Below, piece after piece: positions 10,301 through 57,164 of a DNA stretch of 64,000 nt. Origin of the DNA: Palaeococcus ferrophilus DSM 13482 (GTDB lineage: Archaea > Methanobacteriota_B > Thermococci > Thermococcales > Thermococcaceae); the NCBI RefSeq assembly GCF_000966265.1, contig NZ_LANF01000011.1, forward strand, positions 1 to 64,000. The letters are read 5' to 3'. The notes beneath the pieces were generated by a model, which saw only the letters and a list, made by a program, of their open reading frames with translations, ran no database searches and had not been told where the DNA came from. Position numbers and translations under genes: made by a program. Every line of letters begins with the position of its first letter. The stretch's first letter is position 1.

Positions 10301-10501
10301 TCACCTTCTCTCCCTAAGCTTTTCATTCCTTATTGTGAGCAAACGGGCGAGGTCCCTCTTGAGGGACCTTATCTTCATGGGGTTCTCGAGGGAGGTCCCC
10401 ATGGTGAGCATACCCCTCTCCTTGGCGAGTTCCATCCTGACTTCCTTGATCTTCTCGTTTATCTCCTCAAGGCTCATCTCCCTAATTTCACTGGGCTTCA
10501 T
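10301..10501 (-). CDS. rpl29: Large-subunit ribosomal protein L29
   Basis: A 66-residue two-helix L29 located near the peptide exit tunnel. The N-terminal [20 protein letters not shown] and the C-terminal [17 protein letters not shown] are typical of the family. The start overlaps the end of S3 by four bases, so translation is coupled. Confidence 0.94.
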
Positions 10502-38997: not shown

Positions 38998-39927
38998 TCA
39001 CTTCAGGGCAAGTCTTGCAACGAAAAATCCGCTCGTTTTGTGCTTGTCTGGGTAAAACCGCCTCGCTTTGGAAATTTCTTCATCCAGTCCAATACCAAAA
39101 GGTGCCCTAAGTGCGGGTTCCCCATAACGTAGTGGGAGAAGCTCAACGTCAAAGTTATCAAGAACCCACTGAACCACGAACTCGTTCTCCTCCGGCTCGA
39201 GGGAGCAGGTGGAGTAAACTAAAACGCCTCCTCTCTTCAGAACGCTCAGACCCTTCTCAAGGAGCTTCATCTGGAGCCCCTGACAGAACTTTACATCGTC
39301 CATAGAGCGGTTGGCCTTCCTCTCGGGGTTCTTGTGAATGGTTCCGGAGCCGGTACAGGGCGCATCGAGGAGGATTTTGTCGAATTCCACCCCAAGCTCG
39401 TCTATGTGGAGGGAAGACCTGTGGAACAGGACCGTGTTTATTACCCCGAGGCGCGAGAGGTTCAACCTCGTCTCCTTCAGCCTCTCCTCACCGACGTCGA
39501 AGGCGTAGATTATCCCTTCGTTTTTCATAAGCTGGGCTATGTAGGAGGTCTTCCCGCCGGGGGCGGCGGCCATGTCGGCGACGACTTCACCGGGCTTTGG
39601 GTCGAGGGCTACGGGCGGATACATAGAGCTCGCTTCCTGGATGTAGAGAAGGCCGGAGAGGTACTCCGGCGTGGAGGTTATCGAGAAGGGCTCCCTCGTG
39701 AGGCAGAAGCCTTCCCTCGTCCAGGGGACACGCCTGAACTGGAAGCCCTTCCTGTTGAGGAGCTTCGTGAGCTTTGGAACCTCTATCTGAAGTGTATTTA
39801 CGCGGAAGCACCTTGGAAGGGGCTTTTCCATCGCCTCCGCTATCGCCAGTGCCCTCTCGCCCCAGAGCCGGTAATAGCGCTCCGCGAAGGTCTTTGAGTA
39901 GCCGAGGCTGAAGAGACGCTCAATCAT
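38998..39927 (-). CDS. RNA cytosine-C5 methyltransferase (NSUN/RsmB family)
   Basis: A 309-residue m5C RNA methyltransferase. The SAM-binding motif is ADMAAAPGGKTSYIAQLM. Motif IV DAPCTGSG and motif VI VYSTCSLEPEENE supply the two catalytic cysteines. Single-domain archaeal members act on tRNA, but the target base cannot be read here. The ATG at 39927 is used; an ATG at 39951 is in frame but has the TATA-like stretch next to it. Confidence 0.9.
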   Translation of the reverse strand: MIERLFSLGYSKTFAERYYRLWGERALAIAEAMEKPLPRCFRVNTLQIEVPKLTKLLNRKGFQFRRVPWTREGFCLTREPFSITSTPEYLSGLLYIQEASSMYPPVALDPKPGEVVADMAAAPGGKTSYIAQLMKNEGIIYAFDVGEERLKETRLNLSRLGVINTVLFHRSSLHIDELGVEFDKILLDAPCTGSGTIHKNPERKANRSMDDVKFCQGLQMKLLEKGLSVLKRGGVLVYSTCSLEPEENEFVVQWVLDNFDVELLPLRYGEPALRAPFGIGLDEEISKARRFYPDKHKTSGFFVARLALK

Positions 39928-48086: not shown

Positions 48087-49403
48087 TCATATTGACCTCC
48101 TGCTCTTCTCAAGCCCGTAGAGGTAGAGAGACGCTGGTACGGTGTCTTCCCCTACCTCATCCTTTGAGACGTAGATGGTTGGGAAGGGATAGCTCTTCCT
48201 CTTCACCCTTCCGTACTTGACCTCTATCCCGAAGAAGCCTCCTCTCTTCACGACGAGGTCACACTCCCTGTTTTGATCGTAGTAGAAGCCACCAAATGAG
48301 TGCTTCTCTCTCATTATCGGTTCTTCGCGGGACCATATCACGTGAGTTGCCACCGTGTGCTCCACTAACCACTCTATGTTCTCCTCGACGAACTCAACCG
48401 GATCGCTCCCGAGGTAGAGGGCCAGGGCCGTCGCTATCAAGGAGCTCTGGAAGACCACCTTTTTCTCCTTCCGGTGGGCGTGCCTCTTTCTGTTGATATC
48501 CCAGGCCTCGAGGACGTAGATGAGCCTCGCGCTCTCAAGGGTGTTCAGGTACTCCCTCACCGTCGGATGGGATATTCCAGTCTCACGGGCGAGGGTCACG
48601 TAGTCAACCCTGTTCCCCTTCAGCCTAAAGATAGCTTCAAGAAGCTCCCGAGCTATTTCCTCGCTCTTTCCAGATTTTGCTATCTCCCCGAGGGTGAGCC
48701 TTATTATCTCCTCGTACCTCTTCTCGCTCACCTTTCTTTTCCTCTTGAACTCGAGGACTGCCTCCGGGAAGCCCCCGGTGAGGATGTAGCCGTAGAAAAG
48801 GCCCTCAAGCTCGTCGAACCAGGGAAACAGGTCGTCCGCGGCTGGGGAGTCATAGGTAAAAGCGACCTCCGGGAGCCTGGGGTTGAGGAAGCGCGCGAAC
48901 TCCCTGAAGTTCAAAGGGTTGAAGTAGTACTCGTTCCCCTCTATTCCCCTCCCTGGAAGGAGCTCGCTTTCTCTCTTAAGCTCCACGGGATTTGAGCCGG
49001 TTGCGACTGTGGTTGCCCTCTCCTCCCCGAGGGCCTTGAGAAGGAGCCTCCAGTCCCTGAGGTAGGTTATCTCGTCGAGGAGGACTGTTAGCTCGCCGTG
49101 CCTCCTCCGGAGCTCCTCTATGAAGGAAACGACCTCTTTCCTCGAGAACCTGTCGGCGGGAATGTAAACAATCTTCCTCGGGTCGGTTCCGGGGCGTATG
49201 AGCTCCTCCACGAGGGTCTTGAGGTAGAAGCTCTTTCCTGCCCTTCTGATGCCCCTGAGGAGGATAACGCCTCCTGGATTAACTGTTATTCGCTTCCTAG
49301 GTATTACCTCTCCCGCCCTCGAGAGGTCGGGGTCTTCACTCTCCCAGCCTTCCCCCTTCCACCAGGGGTTGTAGCGGACGAGCCTCACAATCTTGACTGC
49401 CAT
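48087..49403 (-). CDS. AAA ATPase with DUF4143-type C-terminus
   Basis: A 438-residue ATPase. Walker A is RGIRRAGKSF near residues 50-59, Walker B VLLDEITYL near 108-116, and an arginine/sensor region ATGSNPVELKRE follows. The middle has a winged-helix-like segment (VDYVTLARETGISHPTVREYLNTLESARLIYVLEAW shortened here), and the C-terminal nuclease-like fold ends with ECDLVVKRGGFFGIEVKYG. The ATG at 49403 is about 26 bases below a TATA box and adjoins the first of four dyads, so the gene is probably leaderless and self-regulated. The true function is unknown. Confidence 0.85.
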   Translation of the reverse strand: MAVKIVRLVRYNPWWKGEGWESEDPDLSRAGEVIPRKRITVNPGGVILLRGIRRAGKSFYLKTLVEELIRPGTDPRKIVYIPADRFSRKEVVSFIEELRRRHGELTVLLDEITYLRDWRLLLKALGEERATTVATGSNPVELKRESELLPGRGIEGNEYYFNPLNFREFARFLNPRLPEVAFTYDSPAADDLFPWFDELEGLFYGYILTGGFPEAVLEFKRKRKVSEKRYEEIIRLTLGEIAKSGKSEEIARELLEAIFRLKGNRVDYVTLARETGISHPTVREYLNTLESARLIYVLEAWDINRKRHAHRKEKKVVFQSSLIATALALYLGSDPVEFVEENIEWLVEHTVATHVIWSREEPIMREKHSFGGFYYDQNRECDLVVKRGGFFGIEVKYGRVKRKSYPFPTIYVSKDEVGEDTVPASLYLYGLEKSRRSI

Positions 49404-49404
49404 G

Positions 49405-49520
49405 TGTGAAAGTATGCTTTCACAGTTTATAAGATTTGTGAAAGTCCACTTTCATAAATCGGCCTATTTATGAAAACCCACTTTCACAGATCACAGCTTT
49501 TATGAAAGTCCGCTTTCATA
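49405..49520 (-). promoter_or_regulatory. Promoter with four phased dyad operators
   Basis: Four 20-base dyads, each of an 8-base arm, 4-base gap and 8-base arm, lie at 49405-49424, 49437-49456, 49469-49488 and 49501-49520. The consensus is T(G/A)TGAAAG-N4-CTTTCA(C/T)A; the first copy has perfect arms, and the others differ at one to two positions. Copies start exactly 32 bases apart, about three helical turns. On the minus strand a TATA box CTTATAAAC lies at about 49426-49434, between copies one and two. Copy one sits between TATA and the ATPase start. Confidence 0.8.
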
Positions 49521-49552
49521 AAGTGGGCAAAAGGAGGAAGCCGCCCCAGCGT

Positions 49553-50353
49553 TCAGACCTTCCGGAGCTTGCCTATTCCCTCCCACCTCTCCTCCCTCAC
49601 AAGCTCCAGGGCGTAGGCGTAGATGCCGAGCTTCAGAAGATTCTCCGGCGTGGGGTCTTTCCTTGAGAGCTCTTTAACGGCGGAGGAGAGCTTCTGGAGG
49701 GCCTTCTCCTTGGCCTTCTTGGAGTAGTCGGCGAACTCAAGGGCCTGGAGGATGGAGAGGACTTCGAGGAGAGCTTCCGTAGGGAGTTCAAGGGTTTCTC
49801 CAGCAGGGGCTTTCTTTTTCCCTCTGGTCTTTGCTTTCTTCCCACTTATTTCGCTGTAAACCTGCCGTAGCTCCCCTATGTCCTGCTCTGTTAGGATTCC
49901 CGCCTCTACTAGGGCACGGTCTACGTCCGCTCGTTCAAACGCTTGTAGCGTCTCTGCGGGCATATTAAATGCACCCCTGTGAACCTTCTCAGTCACCTTT
50001 TTTACAGTGCGCACTGCCTTTATCAGGCGCTTTCTTTCCTCCTCGCTCAATGGCCTGCCTCTCACGTCCTCTATATGTGATGCTATGCGGTTTGCTATAA
50101 CCTCGTCGTCTGTGTTGAGTATCTGATCGAAGGTTGCGTGCGGATCGTCCACGAGGTATGCTATTTCCCTAGCAACACGCATTCCCACTTCTGGGCTGTG
50201 CTTTTTTGCCATCTCTGCCGCAAGGGGCATCATGAGTTCCGTGAAGAGAATGATTGCAGGGGCGTGCGGGTTATCTGCCTTTCTGTGTGGCCAATACAGG
50301 TCATCAGTATGGGGGGGTATTCGCCTTCCCTCGTTTTCTTTATTTTTTTGCAT
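49553..50353 (-). CDS. Unknown island protein, paralogue of the 51469 gene
   Basis: A 266-residue, mostly helical protein. The last 70 residues (EVLSILQALEFADYSKKAKE and KDPTPENLLKLGIYAYALEL) match the end of the gene at 51469, and the middle (DQILNTDDEVIANRIA) also matches. A lysine-rich linker (about residues 170-190) separates the two parts. I recognise no enzyme motif. The ATG at 50353 is 14 bases inside the preceding small gene, at an A7 run (50343-50349); losing one A would fuse the two. Confidence 0.65.
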   Translation of the reverse strand: MQKNKENEGRRIPPHTDDLYWPHRKADNPHAPAIILFTELMMPLAAEMAKKHSPEVGMRVAREIAYLVDDPHATFDQILNTDDEVIANRIASHIEDVRGRPLSEEERKRLIKAVRTVKKVTEKVHRGAFNMPAETLQAFERADVDRALVEAGILTEQDIGELRQVYSEISGKKAKTRGKKKAPAGETLELPTEALLEVLSILQALEFADYSKKAKEKALQKLSSAVKELSRKDPTPENLLKLGIYAYALELVREERWEGIGKLRKV

Positions 50354-50540
50354 CCATTCCCGTTAACTTCGATATAATTTTGTGTGTATCGTATCCGCTT
50401 AATACGATGCTTAGCGCACCAATTTTGTGTAAATCCTTCTCTGTCAGCCCGTACTGCTTCGCTATCTTCTCCAGATCTTTGCCCTTCTTTTTCTCCTTCT
50501 TCCCGAATATGAACATCCCGGTGAGCGGCAGGAGCGACAA
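50340..50540 (-). CDS. Small unknown protein ahead of the 49553 gene
   Basis: A 66-residue protein with a hydrophobic opening (LLPLTGMFIFG), a lysine-rich patch and a helical part (KDLEKIAKQYGLTEKDLHKIG). The TTG at 50540 follows GGGTGGTACCC and is preferred; a GTG at 50549 and an ATG at 50516 are alternatives. It ends at TAA within an A7 run that also contains the start of the next gene. It may be the true N-terminus of that larger protein. Confidence 0.5.
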   Translation of the reverse strand: MSLLPLTGMFIFGKKEKKKGKDLEKIAKQYGLTEKDLHKIGALSIVLSGYDTHKIISKLTGMDAKK

Positions 50541-50636
50541 GGGTACCACCCTCTAAGGTTTGGTCTCAGAGAAATAAGGGTTTCGGGCTGGGAAAGGTTA
50601 ATAACCTGCCTGAAGAAAAATCTTAATGGTGAGAGA

Positions 50637-50810
50637 ATGGCCGAGGCGACCAGGGGCAAGGCCCTCAAGCTCTACGAGAGGATGTTCGAACGGGAGATGG
50701 AGATTTTGAAACTCATCGAGGAGAAGAAAAGGGAAATAAAGCCCGGAATGCTGGGAAAGGGGAGCTTTGAGGAGTTCAAGAAGTACAAGCTCGAGGTGTA
50801 CGAAGGGTGA
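50637..50810 (+). CDS. Small antitoxin-like protein of a PIN toxin pair
   Basis: A 57-residue, highly charged helical protein (MAEATRGKALKLYERMFERE at the start). GGTGAGAGA precedes the ATG. It ends at 50810, where the stop codon overlaps the start of the PIN gene (GTGATG). Size, charge and coupling are those of a VapB-type antitoxin, but it has no recognisable DNA-binding motif. A 13-base dyad AGGTTAATAACCT (50595-50607) lies in its promoter region. Confidence 0.7.
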   Translation: MAEATRGKALKLYERMFEREMEILKLIEEKKREIKPGMLGKGSFEEFKKYKLEVYEG

Positions 50811-51259
50811 TGTTCCTCGACTCAAGCGTCCTCTACAACTACCTCGTCGAGACAGAACTAACGAAAGAAGCCGTCAAACTTGTAGACTCTGATGAAGTAA
50901 AAATAGTCTCCGACACCGTCATCGATGAGCTTTTCTACGTGCTCCTGAGGAGAAGTGCCCAGAAGGAGTATGGTGTTTCATCTGCGTGGGGCCTCAAGAA
51001 GCTCCTGAGAAAGAACGAGAGCTTTAGAAAAATCTCCCTTGATGTAATCTCGACCGTTCTTAGCCTCATAGAGGCAAAGGGGATAATCATCGTTCCGGAC
51101 TCAAGGGACTGGCTCACCATAGGAACCCTCGTTCATGACTACTCCCTTCTTCCCCACGACGCGAGGATCCTCGCGACGGCCCTCGAGAACAACTGCACCA
51201 GGCTTGCGACCTTCGACGAAGACTCTAGGGACGTGGACATCATAGAGATCGTTCCGTGA
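50810..51259 (+). CDS. PIN-domain toxin (VapC-like)
   Basis: A 149-residue PIN-domain ribonuclease. Acidic active-site residues are seen at LDSS (aspartate 3 or 4), in VIDELFY, and in the pair PHDARILATALE and TFDEDSRD near the C-terminus. VapC toxins cleave RNA unless bound by their antitoxin. It is read through from the small gene upstream with a TGATG overlap, so the two are one operon. Confidence 0.88.
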   Translation: MFLDSSVLYNYLVETELTKEAVKLVDSDEVKIVSDTVIDELFYVLLRRSAQKEYGVSSAWGLKKLLRKNESFRKISLDVISTVLSLIEAKGIIIVPDSRDWLTIGTLVHDYSLLPHDARILATALENNCTRLATFDEDSRDVDIIEIVP

Positions 51260-51347
51260 GGTTTCAGCTAAGAAATCCCTTAAAAGCCCCTCAAGTCCCA
51301 CCTGAACCCGGACAGTCCCTACTCATTAGCTCAAGGGGACCCCTTTT

Positions 51348-51386
51348 AACTTGCAGGGGTGCAAGTTACTTGTGGGGGTGCAAGTT
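51348..51386 (+). promoter_or_regulatory. Paired dyads without an intact downstream gene
   Basis: AACTTGCA-GGGG-TGCAAGTT (51348-51367) is a perfect 8-4-8 dyad. It shares its last base with a second, imperfect copy (51367-51386) whose right arm is the identical TGCAAGTT. A TATA-like TTTTAAC (51344-51350) precedes it on the plus strand, and a TTG follows at the end of copy two. No intact gene lies downstream. A 20-codon tail on the plus strand (ending EEYLRMKRVKKRA at a TAA, 51474) may be the end of a deleted gene. Confidence 0.6.
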
Positions 51387-51468
51387 GAAACAAGGACATT
51401 CAATCGGCCTAGGACTTCCCGCTCAGCAAAGAGGAGTACCTCAGGATGAAAAGGGTTAAAAAGCGGGC

Positions 51469-52011
51469 CTAAAGCCCCTCGATTTCTTTCATCCTCTCCA
51501 GCTCTCCCCTCTTGATTATTTCGATCGCGAAGGCGTAGAGGCCGAGCTTTAGAAGGTTCTCGGGCGTTAGCTTCTCGGCGGAGACTTCTCTTATCCTTGC
51601 GGAGAGCCTCTCGATGGCCTTTCTTTTTGCCTCCTCAGAAAAGCCCGCAAATTCGAGGCCGTTGAGGATGGAGAGGACTTCGACGTTTACGTTGGGGTCG
51701 AGGGACGGTGAGGTTTTTCTTTCATCGTTGTGTTCTGCTACCTTTTCCTCTTCTCTCAGATCTTCCTTCAGTTTTTCTGCAAGTTCTTCTATTGCCATGT
51801 ATAGCTTTGGGTTAAGTGGTTTGATATCTCGTTCTACATCCGGTATGCCCGAAATTTGCATTATCTCGTCATAGAATGATGGATCCTCAGGGTAAGCATC
51901 CGCAATTTTCTTAATGTACGGGATATACTCTTTTATCCTCTGCTTTATTTCCTCCACACTCACTTTTTGCTCCGTACTGCTAGCAATTTTTGTTGCAATG
52001 GTAGTGAGCAC
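51469..52011 (-). CDS. Unknown island protein, paralogue of the 49553 gene (no proper start)
   Basis: A 180-residue open frame from a GTG at 52011 that lacks a ribosome binding site. Its end (EVLSILNGLEFAGFSEEAKR and LTPENLLKLGLYAFAIEI) matches the gene at 49553. Its frame stays open upstream to 52185 without any start codon, and this upstream part (ITLDDIINSEDV) also matches the paralogue. The real gene therefore extends further and is broken at the A7 run at 52177-52183. See the adjoining pseudogene entry. Confidence 0.6.
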   Translation of the reverse strand: MLTTIATKIASSTEQKVSVEEIKQRIKEYIPYIKKIADAYPEDPSFYDEIMQISGIPDVERDIKPLNPKLYMAIEELAEKLKEDLREEEKVAEHNDERKTSPSLDPNVNVEVLSILNGLEFAGFSEEAKRKAIERLSARIREVSAEKLTPENLLKLGLYAFAIEIIKRGELERMKEIEGL

Positions 52012-52416
52012 GTCCTCTGAGTTTATTATGTCATCGAGGGTAATGGGTTTTTTATCTTGCTCCTTTAGCTTTTTTCCCTGTATTTCCTGTCGCGCTTCAG
52101 AAAGACGTCCTCTCTGGTAGTAAACATGCGTATTTTTGCAGGAACTACATCTTCTACTCTTGCACGGCTGCCGAACTTTTTTTGGCTACTGATGTGATTA
52201 CGTCCAGAAACATGAGGATTTTTGCCAACTCTATGTCGTCCTTGGCAACGACGTATATCGGTTTTCCCCCGAACGGTCGCTTATAATTCCTTGCGTCTCT
52301 AGGGGGATATTCTTCTTTTTCATGAGGTATACCATTAATGCGCTCGCCAGCTTTGAGTGTATACGCGTGGCATCCTTTTTCGTCTTGCTCTCATGTGCAA
52401 TCCACAGGGCCGGCAT
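52012..52416 (-). pseudogene. Broken 5' part of the 51469 gene
   Basis: Upstream of 52183 the coding sequence continues in another frame (GGKPIYVVAKDDIELAKIL, then FLDVITSVAKK). Removing one A from the A7 run at 52177-52183 joins it to the 51469 frame. The joined sequence aligns with the 49553 protein (AIILFTELMMPLAAEMAKK against AKILMFLDVITSVAKK). Further upstream two frames look equally plausible between about 52250 and 52416, one starting at an ATG at 52416, and neither is complete. From 52417 to 52619 I see no gene, only short open stretches. Confidence 0.55.
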
Positions 52417-52619
52417 TATCGAAAGGAAAATTACTTGCAGAATATGTGGTGTGTGAAGGGGAGAGAATCCATCACCAAGAGCATCACATCACCCTCCATT
52501 CTTCAGCATCAAGGGAAATAAGCTTTTCTCCTCTCCCCTCGCAGGTTTCCAAAGAGTCACTGTTAAGACCGTAAAAACAAAGAGGTTAACGATAGCGTAA
52601 AATTTCGGGGTTTACGCGG

Positions 52620-53963
52620 TCAACGGTAGTGAGGGAAGTCCCCCAAGTCCCAAACTAACCAGCCCTCCTCCCTGAGCTCTTCCTTTCCCTCGATGTTTTT
52701 AGCGATCAGTCCATAATACTTTTCCCACCCGTCCAGTCTAACGAGTTTTGCCTTCCTCTCCACGTCCTTCAAAATCCTCGTCGCTTCCCTCTCGCTCAAA
52801 TCCTTCCACTTGGCCTCGACGAAGAGCGCCTTCTTTTCACGCTCGTTGAGAGCGACGAGGTCAATCTCCTCGTTTTTGTGCCACCACCTTCCAATCCTGG
52901 TGAACTTAAACGGGAGCTTCTCGCGTTTATTCAACTTTATGAGGAACTCCCTGGCGATCTTCTCGAACACAGGGCCGAGATAGTGGGGGTAATCCCTCCT
53001 GATCGTCTCCACATCAAAGGTTCCCTCCTCAATGGGGGAGAGGTTGGGATAGATAAAGCGGAACCAGAAAGCCAGGAAGTTGTCGGCTAAATAGTACCTT
53101 CCTTTCTTTGAGCTCTCCCTTTCAGTTATAGGAACCTCCCGCACAACGAAACCTGTCTCCATGAGGTTCCGGAGGTATGGACTCAGGTCGGAGTGCCTCA
53201 TCCTCGCAAAGTCCCTGATCTCCTTCGGTGTTGTTTTCCCGTTTGCTATCGCCTCAAGGATTCTTTTGTAAGTGCTCACTTCCGTGAACTCGTAGCGAAG
53301 GAGAAAGTCCACTTCGTCCCGGAAAAAACTGACCGGGTTTGAAAGTTCCTCTTCCAGCCATCCCCAGAAGGGCAGCCTGACCCGGTTTATGTAGAAAGGT
53401 ATCCCGTCGGTGAGGCCGTGGACCTCTACCAGCTCCTTCCAGGCGGCGTTAGGAAAGAACTCCCTCAGAGAGAAGAAACTCATAGGTCTAAGCTTGAGAG
53501 ATCCGGTTCTCCTGCCGTAGAGGGGGCTTTTGTAGCTGAGAACCTTCTCCGTGATCATGCTCACCGAGGAACCGAGGAGAACGAGCTTGGTCCCCGAATT
53601 CGAGAGGTCGGTATCAATTATCCTCTGGAACAGAGAGAGAATTCCCGGGTTCTCCTTTATGAGGTTGGGGAACTCGTCTATAACTATAACCTTTCCCTTA
53701 AGGGCGTGAAGGGTTCCCTCCCAGTCCTCACGGGCGTACCTGACCTCTGGAAATGTTCTCTCCGCGGTCTCCCTAAAGTGCCTCAGGTTCTCCCCCTCGA
53801 CTGCAAGATAGTATACGTGGGAGGTTCCCTTAACTGCCTCAAGCACAAGTCTCGTTTTCCCGACCCTTCTCCGCCCGTAGATGACGATCAGCTCAAAGCC
53901 CTTCCCCTCAAGGTGCTTTTTAAGGGACTTCAGTTCCTCTCGCCTGTTCACAAAGCGAGACAA
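52620..53963 (-). CDS. Archaeal AAA ATPase with DUF234 C-terminus
   Basis: A 447-residue protein of the archaeal ATPase/DUF234 family. The opening RFVNRREELKSLKKHLEG and Walker A YGRRRVGKTRLV (near residues 29-40) are typical, and Walker B is VIVIDEFPNL. A winged-helix stretch (TTPKEIRDFARMRHSDLSPY) follows the ATPase core, and the C-terminal nuclease-like domain contains EEIDLVALNEREKKALFVEAKW. Its TTG start at 53963 touches the dyad operators. The gene is unrelated in sequence to the 48087 ATPase. Confidence 0.85.
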   Translation of the reverse strand: MSRFVNRREELKSLKKHLEGKGFELIVIYGRRRVGKTRLVLEAVKGTSHVYYLAVEGENLRHFRETAERTFPEVRYAREDWEGTLHALKGKVIVIDEFPNLIKENPGILSLFQRIIDTDLSNSGTKLVLLGSSVSMITEKVLSYKSPLYGRRTGSLKLRPMSFFSLREFFPNAAWKELVEVHGLTDGIPFYINRVRLPFWGWLEEELSNPVSFFRDEVDFLLRYEFTEVSTYKRILEAIANGKTTPKEIRDFARMRHSDLSPYLRNLMETGFVVREVPITERESSKKGRYYLADNFLAFWFRFIYPNLSPIEEGTFDVETIRRDYPHYLGPVFEKIAREFLIKLNKREKLPFKFTRIGRWWHKNEEIDLVALNEREKKALFVEAKWKDLSEREATRILKDVERKAKLVRLDGWEKYYGLIAKNIEGKEELREEGWLVWDLGDFPHYR

Positions 53964-53997
53964 TGATAATCACCATTATGATAATTTCGATTATCAT
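53963..53997 (-). promoter_or_regulatory. Overlapping dyads at the DUF234 ATPase start
   Basis: ATGATAAT-TTCG-ATTATCAT (53978-53997) is a perfect 8-4-8 dyad. ATGATAAT-CACC-ATTATGAT (53963-53982) is a second copy with one mismatch; the two overlap by five bases. On the minus strand a TATA-like CTTTAATATG lies just upstream (about 53996-54006). The dyads therefore sit between TATA and the TTG start, like copy one at the other ATPase gene. Confidence 0.7.
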
Positions 53998-54042
53998 ATT
54001 AAAGCCTTTCTCTTTAAATCGGGGTCTGTCCGTCGTGAGTTT

Positions 54043-55296
54043 TTAGGGAGGAACGTGAGTGAACCTCTTCCCATTTAAGTCAACCTTCACGACGGACTTG
54101 GGCTTCATCACGTTCAACTCTCCTCCGGGTTCATCGGAGAGCAAATCATCACGCTCAACCCCGCTTAGGGCGACCCCAAGTCCCCGCACCAAAACGTTGA
54201 ACGCACCAACAAACTGCCTATCTGCCTTAAACCCACAGTTAGCACACTCCACCAGCCCGTTTCGGGACTCCAACCTACTCCCACACACCGGGCAGGTGGA
54301 CGAAGTGAAAGCGGGATTAACAAACTCAATCGGAACACGATAAGAAAGCTTTCCAACAATTTTCTTCCAAGTGGCACGGGAGAGCCTTCTATTAAACTTC
54401 CTCGAACCGTTCTGGAGCATTTTGAACTTGTCCAAATCCTCGAAGACGAAAACCGTATCTGGAAACTCCCCCGAAAGCTGGACTGCAAGCTTGTTCAAAT
54501 AATCCTCAATCCTGTTCCTTCTCCTCATCCAGTATTTCTTAAGGAGAATTCCAATCCTCTTCGGGGCTTTCCGCTGAACGCTCTTTAGCATATCAATAAT
54601 TCTGTCGTAGGTCTCGGCAATCCTGTGTAGCTCGCTCAAGTCCACTCTAATCCAGCCTTTTTCAGGGTGAAAGATGTCGAGGCTCGTCAGGTTGCTGTCA
54701 ATGCCGATTTTGATTCTTCCAGAGAACTCGACTTCCTTTGAGAAGGTTAGCAGAACGTCTTGCTCTCTGATTATCAGCTCTCCAACCTTCCAGTCCTTGA
54801 TTCTCTCATAGAACCACTCCTTTGAGAAGTCCAGCTCAAGGTATTCTTCTCTCGGCTTGATGGTTACTCTTATCTTCGAACCTTCGACTTTCATTAGTGT
54901 TGTTTTAACCCTCGCGAACTTCCGCTTAACGATTGGCTTCGCTCTTTTTCTTTTTCCCTTGAGGTAGTTCTGTCTCCAGCTTTTGAGGACTGAATAAGCG
55001 GTCTTTATTGCAGAATCAACGTAGTGCTTGGCGAAAGGCCACTCTCGAAGGAGTTCGTTCCTCAGTTCCCGCTTGAACTCGTTTGTTTGTGGAAAATAAG
55101 GGATTATGCGGGTTGTCTCATAGTAGCTGTAATTTTTTCTTCCGACAGAATACCTGTGCTTGACCTTCTTCTCTCTCCAAGTTGTGTTATCCCATATTTC
55201 ATCAATTGCCCTCTGGAGTAGTCTTTGGTATTCTTTGAGGAACAAATCAATGTTCCAGTTGTGGGGCATTCTGTATGTGAGAACGACTTTAGTCAT
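54043..55296 (-). CDS. tnpB: TnpB, RNA-guided nuclease of the IS607 element
   Basis: A 417-residue TnpB. RuvC-like motifs are [13 protein letters not shown] (first aspartate), [11 protein letters not shown] (glutamate) and the C-terminal [12 protein letters not shown]. The zinc ribbon is [21 protein letters not shown]. The third motif has DRQ where many TnpB proteins have DRD, so activity needs checking. TnpB proteins use a guide RNA made from the element's end near their own 3' end; here that would be close to 54000-54060. Confidence 0.9.
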
Positions 55297-55918
55297 TCTC
55301 GACCTCCTCTATGAGTTTTTTCACGCCTTCCTTGAGCTTTTTGTATTTGTGGGAGCGCATTCCGTAGAGCTTTCCAGCGAAGTGCGATATTATGGTTATT
55401 AAGTCTTCAATGAGTTCCTCTCGTGGGGATTTTTCTTTGTCGTTGATAATGATTATCTCTGCACCGTTCTCCTTGAAGAAGAATTCGATAGTTTTGAAAC
55501 CAAAGCGGGTGAGCCTGTCGGGATAAGTGACGATGACTTTTGAGACTTCTCCCTTTGCGACGAGTTCGAGGAGTTTGCGGTAGTTCTTTCTGTTCTCGTT
55601 CAATCCTGAGCCGATGTCTTTGAGGATTTTGACCTGCCAACCACGTTCTTTTGCGTATTGCTCGATGGCTTCAACCTGTCTTTCCAAGTCGTCTTTTTGG
55701 GTGTGGCTTGAGACTCTTGCGTAGCCAATGATTAGTCCGTTTTCCTCGCTTATGCCGAGAAGCCTTTTTATTTCGCTTTCTGGTATTCTTCGTCTTCCGC
55801 CGGGTGTCCTAATGGTTTTGATTTTTCCCTCTTTGTCCCATTTCTGGATTGTTTTTGGGTGGACGCCGAGAATTTCGCTCGCTTGTTTAACCGTGTAGAG
55901 CTTCTCTTTCACTACCAT
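55289..55918 (-). CDS. tnpA: IS607 serine recombinase TnpA
   Basis: A 209-residue IS607 transposase. An N-terminal MerR-like helix-turn-helix ([19 protein letters not shown]) is followed by the resolvase domain. Its catalytic serine lies in [17 protein letters not shown]. The ATG at 55918 starts MVVKEKLY; an earlier start at 55936 is possible. The end overlaps tnpB by 8 bases. Confidence 0.92.
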
Positions 55919-56036
55919 ACACTCACAATTAATCACAAAAATATTTAAAGTTTTCCGTTAAGAGGAACAGTTAAACAAGGCGTTTGAGATGATAGCCATA
56001 CCCACGGCTCAAAAAAGTGTAAAAAGGGAAGAAACC

Positions 56037-56984
<948 letters not shown>

Positions 56985-57164
56985 GCGCATCACCGTCTAA
57001 AGCTTGCCATAGGTTTTAATAACCATTTCGCCGGCATAAAACATGAAATGGCGAATTTTTTCGAATGTATCCCGCATTCAACTTTCCAAACATAAAGCTA
57101 ATCCTGCGAAAGGGTTTACAACAAAGCTAATAAGTTTCCACCGCATCTTCCTCCGGGGGTTCGC

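Follow-up and report, generated by a model that had tools for sequence, protein, structure and literature searches.

What reads the inverted repeats that stand before two ATPase genes of the archaeon Palaeococcus ferrophilus DSM 13482, and to what end? The genes, for ATPase A (AAA_14-DUF4143) and ATPase B (ATPase_2-DUF234), lie within positions 1-64000 of contig NZ_LANF01000011.1 (the window; Table 1), part of a 2.2-Mb genome (G000) that we compared within a set of 94 related Thermococcaceae genomes, itself included. An earlier interpretation made from the letters alone (the sequence-only reading) had seen here ATPase modules, each under a private operator of one common geometry, two 8-base arms around a 4-base spacer (8-4-8). 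Comparative analysis leads us to regard it as likely that a winged helix inside each ATPase binds the operator at its own promoter and most probably represses it, the spacing of the operator following the ATPase family and its letters following the recognition helix of the protein.

The window contains five perfect 8-4-8 dyads, four of which fall at the three sites that had been named (at 49405, 49501, 51348, and 53978); the fifth, at 10350, is a GC-rich hairpin. Dyads with the other spacers from 0 to 12 bases number zero to four perfect cases each, against an expectation of about one for an 8-bp arm. The three sites are real and their arms differ, but both the layout and the placement ascribed to them needed correction. 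The geometry is not shared: the DUF234 family uses four-base spacers (N4) with a 15-bp step or a single 6-1-6 dyad, the DUF4143 family uses N3 or N4 spacers with a 32- or 34-bp step, and a further ATPase, here called C, uses 19 bp. A single 8-4-8 geometry for all the ATPases failed as a candidate, the G000 paralogs besides A and B mostly being without it. The third site had been placed at the start of the minus-strand gene at 51469-52011; it lies instead between the 3' ends of this gene and of a PIN-domain gene, and no resident module stands behind it, as discussed below.

Both resident ATPases are conserved together with the operator at their own promoter. ATPase A (PADLOC profile PDLC04787 of PDC-S01, 2.5e-30) has 14 orthologs at 72-91% identity in the 94 genomes, and the 32-bp repeat is found upstream of all 14 genes of its cluster. 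ATPase B (profile PDLC04984 of PDC-S27, 4e-39 over residues 1-387, most of the protein) has 28 near-full-length relatives at 69-80% identity; the 15-bp repeat precedes 28 of the 30 genes of its cluster, and in the window the operator ends at the start of the gene. These relatives keep arms and step but differ in the N4 spacers and in the genes nearby. The closest relative of B outside Thermococcales is encoded on a Methanocaldococcus jannaschii plasmid (60% identity), where arms and layout are as in the Thermococcus operator: the stretch 1840-1906 of NC_001732 (L306) carries, for the DUF234 ATPase MJ_RS08955, an operator nearly identical to that of B. In five of the 30 B-cluster genes (L060, L067, L068, L070, and L078), the operator is present twice in full, the second copy 53 bp upstream of the first and the TATA box in between. 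A DUF4143-like ATPase of G009 (L167), 29% identical to A, has at its start TTGAAAGTTAACTTTCAA, with the same arm core as A. A search of viral contigs with ATPase A as query returned no relative.

Comparable elements recur throughout the Thermococcaceae ATPases, which we collected as 189 distinct proteins in 27 clusters at 60% identity, with paralogs taken by rank from ortholog lists. Most clusters have their own dyad at or near the start codon, a few singleton clusters showing no clear one by eye. In the DUF234 clusters, these include TGATAAT-N4-ATTATCA (B), TTTACT-N4-AGTAAA, TTATCTT-N4-AAGATAA, and single 6-1-6 dyads such as GATTAT-C-ATAATC; in the DUF4143 clusters, they include TATGAAAG-N4-CTTTCATA (A), TGAGAACT-N3-AGTTCTCA, TTGGTAAT-N3-ATTACCAA, and others. 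When the best 8-pair dyad of the last 60 nucleotides was scored, 99 of 131 ATPase genes had at least seven of eight pairs, compared with 70 among 282 control genes and 169 among 655 shuffles. With a quarter of the control genes also at this level, a generic dyad score is weak on its own; it is conservation and the fixed step that carry the case.

To measure the step, we searched the last 100 nucleotides before each gene for direct repeats of 7-mers that differ by at most one base, testing each distance between 9 and 40 bp. Outside Thermococcales, the 15-bp repeat is present in 29 of 31 DUF234 genes, against 3.2 expected and at most six at any other distance; these 31 genes, 24 on genome contigs (26 found; L320 and L331 dropped for too little upstream DNA) and seven on plasmids, are partly related to each other, and the counts are not all independent. 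With 15 bp taken as a prediction for fresh loci, the repeat was found in 12 of 12 plasmid genes (1.6 expected), from Haloferax, Natronorubrum, Halocatena, Fusobacterium, Bacteroides (two), Rhizobium, Mesorhizobium, Rhodothermus, Vibrio, Protochlamydia, and Selenomonas, and in six of seven fresh genes from viral contigs with at least 32% identity (0.7 expected; L360 and L361 were removed from the viral set as the same match as L359). Two viral contigs (L371 and L373) display a stretch of about 37 bases twice within the 100 nucleotides before a distant ATPase relative. Within the Thermococcaceae, the 15-bp step is seen in three DUF234 clusters (28/30, 28/28, and 15/15), most of the other DUF234 clusters having a single 6-1-6 or 6-0-6 dyad. 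In the DUF4143 clusters, the step is 34 bp (15/15, 8/9, 5/5, and 4/4), the A cluster with its 32 bp standing apart. Spacing is therefore family-specific, at 15, 32-34, or 19 bp. The enrichment of dyads upstream of ATPases elsewhere, on which the sequence-only reading had staked itself, is clearly present, and its picture of ATPase modules with operators at a shared promoter position and clade-specific arms holds.

The proteins themselves offer a candidate reader. In the B family, the Walker A and nuclease residues G30, G35, K36, D368, E383, and K385 are invariant in 24 sequences, and the nuclease core, D368 and E383-x-K385, lies after the winged helix. An AlphaFold model of B from the 24-sequence alignment (mean predicted local distance difference test score 90.8) folds the winged helix as three helices (229-240, 246-253, and 257-270) with a wing of two strands behind them. 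A Foldseek search with this model places 2qen and 2fna nearest, followed by STAND and Orc/Cdc6 proteins, some of the Orc/Cdc6 chains being bound to origin DNA.

We fitted the layout H-N4-h-N1-H-N4-h for 43 DUF234 proteins and looked for protein columns that co-vary with the half-site, using 25 of them. Half-site base 4, counted second from the spacer, is tracked best, among 353 alignment columns covering the entire protein, by residue X of an X-Y-L motif, with an excess mutual information of 0.74 against 0.50 for the column that follows. In the model of B, this residue is P262, which falls in the third helix (257-270), the predicted recognition helix of the winged helix. Proline accompanies A in 10 of 10 cases, and lysine accompanies C in eight of 10. 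Under within-group permutation, the association has p = 0.0005 (n = 25) and the column ranks first of 397; in a non-redundant set (at most 60% identity, n = 16), p is 0.0055 and the column ranks first of 393. The P/K pairing recurs in three protein groups (L319/L318, B-type/cluster 1, and L335/L328), with 46-49% identity within each pair, the groups having been set from the alignment by the analyst and not from a tree. The proposal that arm sequence varies with the winged helix of the ATPase is thus borne out in the DUF234 branch, where the protein's own DNA-binding domain probably sets the sequence of its operator.

Several observations weigh against so simple a correspondence. The covariation used only frames scoring at least 18 (25 of 43), leaving out 18 weak frames, and L337 was left out for want of a readable helix; two of the proteins used are exceptions, L324 pairing lysine with A and L327 pairing lysine with T, and in the non-redundant set the lead over the next column is narrow (excess 0.47 versus 0.43). 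Of the eight viral relatives with no more than 28% identity, only three have the 15-bp repeat (1.1 expected), and six further DUF234 clusters of the Thermococcaceae are essentially without it (1/15, 0/11, 0/7, 1/3, 0/3, and 0/3). Among the DUF4143 relatives outside Thermococcales, a start-proximal dyad (8-bp arm, one mismatch allowed) was found in two of the four that were examined, plus one weak case. Moreover, the operators of all three ATPases, A, B, and C, are also met in genomes that lack the gene.

What the comparison establishes by computation is a conserved position and spacing, covariation of arm and helix in the DUF234 branch, and an intact architecture of ATPase, winged helix, and nuclease. 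Because the best-covarying column sits in the protein's own recognition helix, we infer that the ATPase binds its own promoter directly. Each ATPase gene would carry an operator of inverted half-sites, placed ahead of its promoter, transcript start, and ribosome-binding site or overlapping them, and read by the winged helix inside its product. Since the operator lies over the TATA box, the transcript start, and the ribosome site, binding would most likely mean repression rather than activation, holding the ATPase-nuclease at a low level; release might come with the ATP state or with an infection signal, and the genes may act in defence. In the DUF234 branch of B, the half-sites are arranged as H-N4-h-N1-H-N4-h, which brings equivalent half-sites round every 15 bp; in the DUF4143 branch of A, whole dyads follow each other at 32-34 bp on both sides of the TATA box, and for ATPase C the step is 19 bp.

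The operators are private in part. In G000, the core A motif occurs three times in 2.2 Mb, each time at A, the B motif is found in two places, both at B, and the C motif at one site. On the other side, GAGTAT/ATACTC dyads are common to three DUF234 paralogs of G000, the ATAAT core of B is shared with another DUF234 paralog, and other genomes contain orphan operators. As some of these paralogs have half-sites in common, the arms separate most of the modules, not all.

The third site differs from the other two in that no ATPase follows it. Its motif occurs as one copy per genome in 21 of the 94 genomes, G000 among them, and is followed in 13 of these 21 loci by the gene for ATPase C, a protein of 360 amino acids with a C-terminal stretch resembling a winged helix. 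The 19-bp step is found upstream in all 13 filled loci, and in 10 of them a second copy of the operator lies at the stop codon of C. Between the window and the filled site of G031, whose ATPase A is 90% identical, the right flanks are alike and the left flanks only partly so. Because its right flank matches that of the filled site, the third site is most likely the empty site of an ATPase C gene that is still present in this sister genome. An alternative, that the site carries the C-terminal end of a DUF234 gene, was dropped when the comparison with G031 identified this stretch as the right flank of ATPase C. A plasmid search with ATPase C as query returned no relative.

Operators lacking their genes are also seen for A and B. 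In a tree of 70 genomes, arrays of the A type (at least two dyads) stand before an NSUN-type gene without A there in 17; three more arrays appear decayed, A is present at this locus in nine genomes, and it lies elsewhere in four. One of the nine, G054, has a broken A without dyads. A GAACC box before the NSUN TATA is kept in 10 of 13 A-less arrays, and the A-plus junction, TCAATATGA-TTTTAAACC in seven of nine genomes, lacks this box. In the close A-less genomes G033, G044, G061, and G017, none of 36 core arm positions has changed, against 10-23% of the other 48. The NSUN tree was built by a quick method and leaves 35 of its 67 inner branches open; it does not settle whether the A-less arrays are ancestral or derived. 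As for B, its motif occurs in 15 genomes without a listed full-length ortholog, a control pattern being found in four of 94; 11 of 16 stretches from B-less genomes hold the whole 33-bp operator, several next to the gene that neighbours B in B-plus genomes, and most of the remaining five are chance-like single dyads. In most A-plus genomes, ATPase A stands directly before the NSUN gene. In G000, the NSUN-type gene (39010-39927, minus strand) is about 8 kb from ATPase A, and an ornithine carbamoyltransferase gene (56037-56993, minus strand) is 6.6 kb from it; here the A unit has moved or the region has been rearranged.

Because operators persist without their genes, simple autoregulation is insufficient. 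One could suppose that the arrays serve mobile ATPase genes mainly as places of recombination or insertion and control the promoter only in the second place, as suggested by the operator copies that bracket C in most filled loci, the single operators that mark empty sites, the whole B operators beside the same neighbour gene, and the absence from the A-plus junction of the box that most A-less arrays keep. We consider this unlikely: the unit has no recombinase, the 3' ends of A and B showed no copy of the operator, and recombination between flanking repeats, a passive process, explains the loss of C. As none was seen there, A and B would need pre-existing arrays or allele replacement. A combined form is doubtful to a like degree: here a mobile one-gene module would use the operator also as its place of landing or excision, the protein would read the array for gene control as well as for site marking, and empty arrays would be retained for the remaining function. 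If it were true, the genes of A and B would insert beside their operator arrays and that of C between copies of its own, and the empty arrays may serve re-acquisition, or act as a sink that protects the host when a module arrives.

The same A-less arrays, with their unchanged arms, could instead be read as the work of one or more separate host transcription factors that bind the dyads, the ATPases being merely targets; in its favour, other regulators in Thermococcales commonly have palindromic operators. Against it, the layout follows the protein through archaea and many bacterial phyla, which have no known common regulator, and arm sequence changes in step with the recognition helix of the ATPase itself. 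Every clade would need a separate factor; we regard the idea as improbable. Improbable to a greater degree is that the ATPases are replication-initiator-like proteins, relatives of Orc1/Cdc6 or iteron-binding Rep, and the arrays iteron- or origin-like sites. The Orc/Cdc6 chains among the structural matches, some on origin DNA, the iteron-like look of gene-proximal upstream repeats, and the relatives on plasmids fit this, but a genome may hold up to 19 DUF234 matches, the PD-(D/E)XK site is intact, and the step is 15 bp and not the two helical turns at which iterons usually recur, so that iteron-type spacing was not found. That the dyads are RNA hairpins acting in leader attenuation or ribosome-site masking, as the second N4 spacer GGTG, a presumed ribosome-binding site in B and two other clusters, might suggest, is least credible of all, since most A dyads lie upstream of the TATA box and hence outside the mRNA, and both the fixed 15-bp direct-repeat step and the arm-helix covariation point to a DNA-binding protein.

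Binding by the ATPase's own winged helix, the reading that we favour, has partial parallels. Defence-type genes under an operator over their own promoter are familiar from autoregulated toxin-antitoxin pairs and from BrxR/CapW-type regulators; in those systems, the operator is bound by an antitoxin or WYL regulator that is a protein of its own, whereas the DNA reader proposed here is part of the ATPase-nuclease itself. Orc1/Cdc6 initiators (2qby and others) are likewise AAA+ proteins with a winged helix that reads DNA repeats, and they differ from the present ATPases in function, nuclease domain, and repeat layout. PABY2304 (2qen) and SSO1545 (2fna), whose structures come closest to the model of B, are Walker-type ATPases with chains of 350-352 amino acids, too short to include a nuclease domain as well, and their entry titles mention no DNA. 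What appears to be new is a set of defence-type genes, probably self-controlled, that would have the DNA reader inside the effector, with an operator whose step depends on the family and whose letters depend on the recognition helix. The suggested link to defence gains indirect support in that A and B match the PADLOC candidates PDC-S01 and PDC-S27, which have candidate status only. According to PMC12988326, both are fusions of an ATPase with a PD-(D/E)XK domain, PDC-S01 ranks fourth in frequency among the defences of all prokaryotes, and validation of most such candidates is pending. PDC-S27 has the same ATPase and PD-(D/E)XK make-up as B, and PDC-S01 both Pfam domains of A (AAA_14 and DUF4143); the candidates are described there by family and distribution, and the main text of PMC12988326 contains no match for "palindrom" or "operator". 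No account of these operators was found in the full-text literature, a coverage outside of which most subscription papers fall and in which many of the DUF234 matches seem to be prefix matches to DUF2345.

The remaining genes of the region are as had been described: besides the two ATPase families, there are a PIN gene with a small partner, two related helpers, and an IS607-type pair (Table 1). The joint role envisaged for the PIN pair, the helpers, and the IS607 element was not supported. Helper 1 ends just upstream of the A operator, and the same is seen in L022, judging from the last codons.

Table 1. Features of the ATPase region (window coordinates)
Feature	Position	Strand	Remarks
ATPase A: AAA_14, winged helix, DUF4143	48087..49403	-	PADLOC PDC-S01; PF13173 and PF13635 above cut-off
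Putative operator of A: four dyads TRTGAAAR-N4-YTTTCAYA	49405-49424, 49437-49456, 49469-49488, 49501-49520	-	exact 32-bp step
TATA box of A	49426..49433	-	between first and second dyad; TTATAA conserved in orthologs
Helper protein 1	49553..50353	-	no Pfam family above cut-off; no NCBIfam or PADLOC match
Small protein (57 amino acids) before PIN gene; presumed antitoxin	50637..50810	+	role inferred from position
PIN-domain protein, presumed toxin	50807..51259	+	PF01850, E 1.3e-15
BRE/TATA-like CCCTTTTAA, most likely of absent ATPase C	51341..51349	+	same element before C in filled loci
Operator, most likely of absent ATPase C: AACTTGCA-GGGG-TGCAAGTT and ACTTGTG-GGGG-TGCAAGTT	51348..51386	+	two dyads, 19-bp step
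Right flank of probable empty site	51387..51462	+	closely resembles right flank of filled site in G031 (L150)
Helper protein 2, related to helper 1	51469..52011	-	55% identity over 58 amino acids
ATPase B: ATPase_2, winged helix, DUF234 PD-(D/E)XK domain	52620..53963	-	PADLOC PDC-S27; PF01637 and PF03008 above cut-off
Putative operator of B: TGATAAT-N4-ATTATCATAAT-N4-ATTATCA	53963..53997	-	overlapping dyads 53963-53982 and 53978-53997; centres 15 bp apart
TnpB/OrfB-like protein, IS607-type element	54043..55296	-	domain search
Serine resolvase (MerR-type helix-turn-helix and Resolvase), IS607-type element	55289..55936	-	domain search

These ATPases form a large and poorly understood family that is thought to be anti-viral, and the spacing of their operators is nearly constant from archaea to bacteria. 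If our reading is right, the operator reveals the sequence recognized by the winged helix and predicts a swappable specificity residue, proline going with ATAAT and lysine with ATACT. It also suggests how one genome could hold up to 19 DUF234 matches with limited cross-talk, and the orphan operators raise a separate question, that of the gain and loss of such genes. More generally, the operators would supply reporters for the release of an ATPase from its promoter, by which the triggering signal could be sought.

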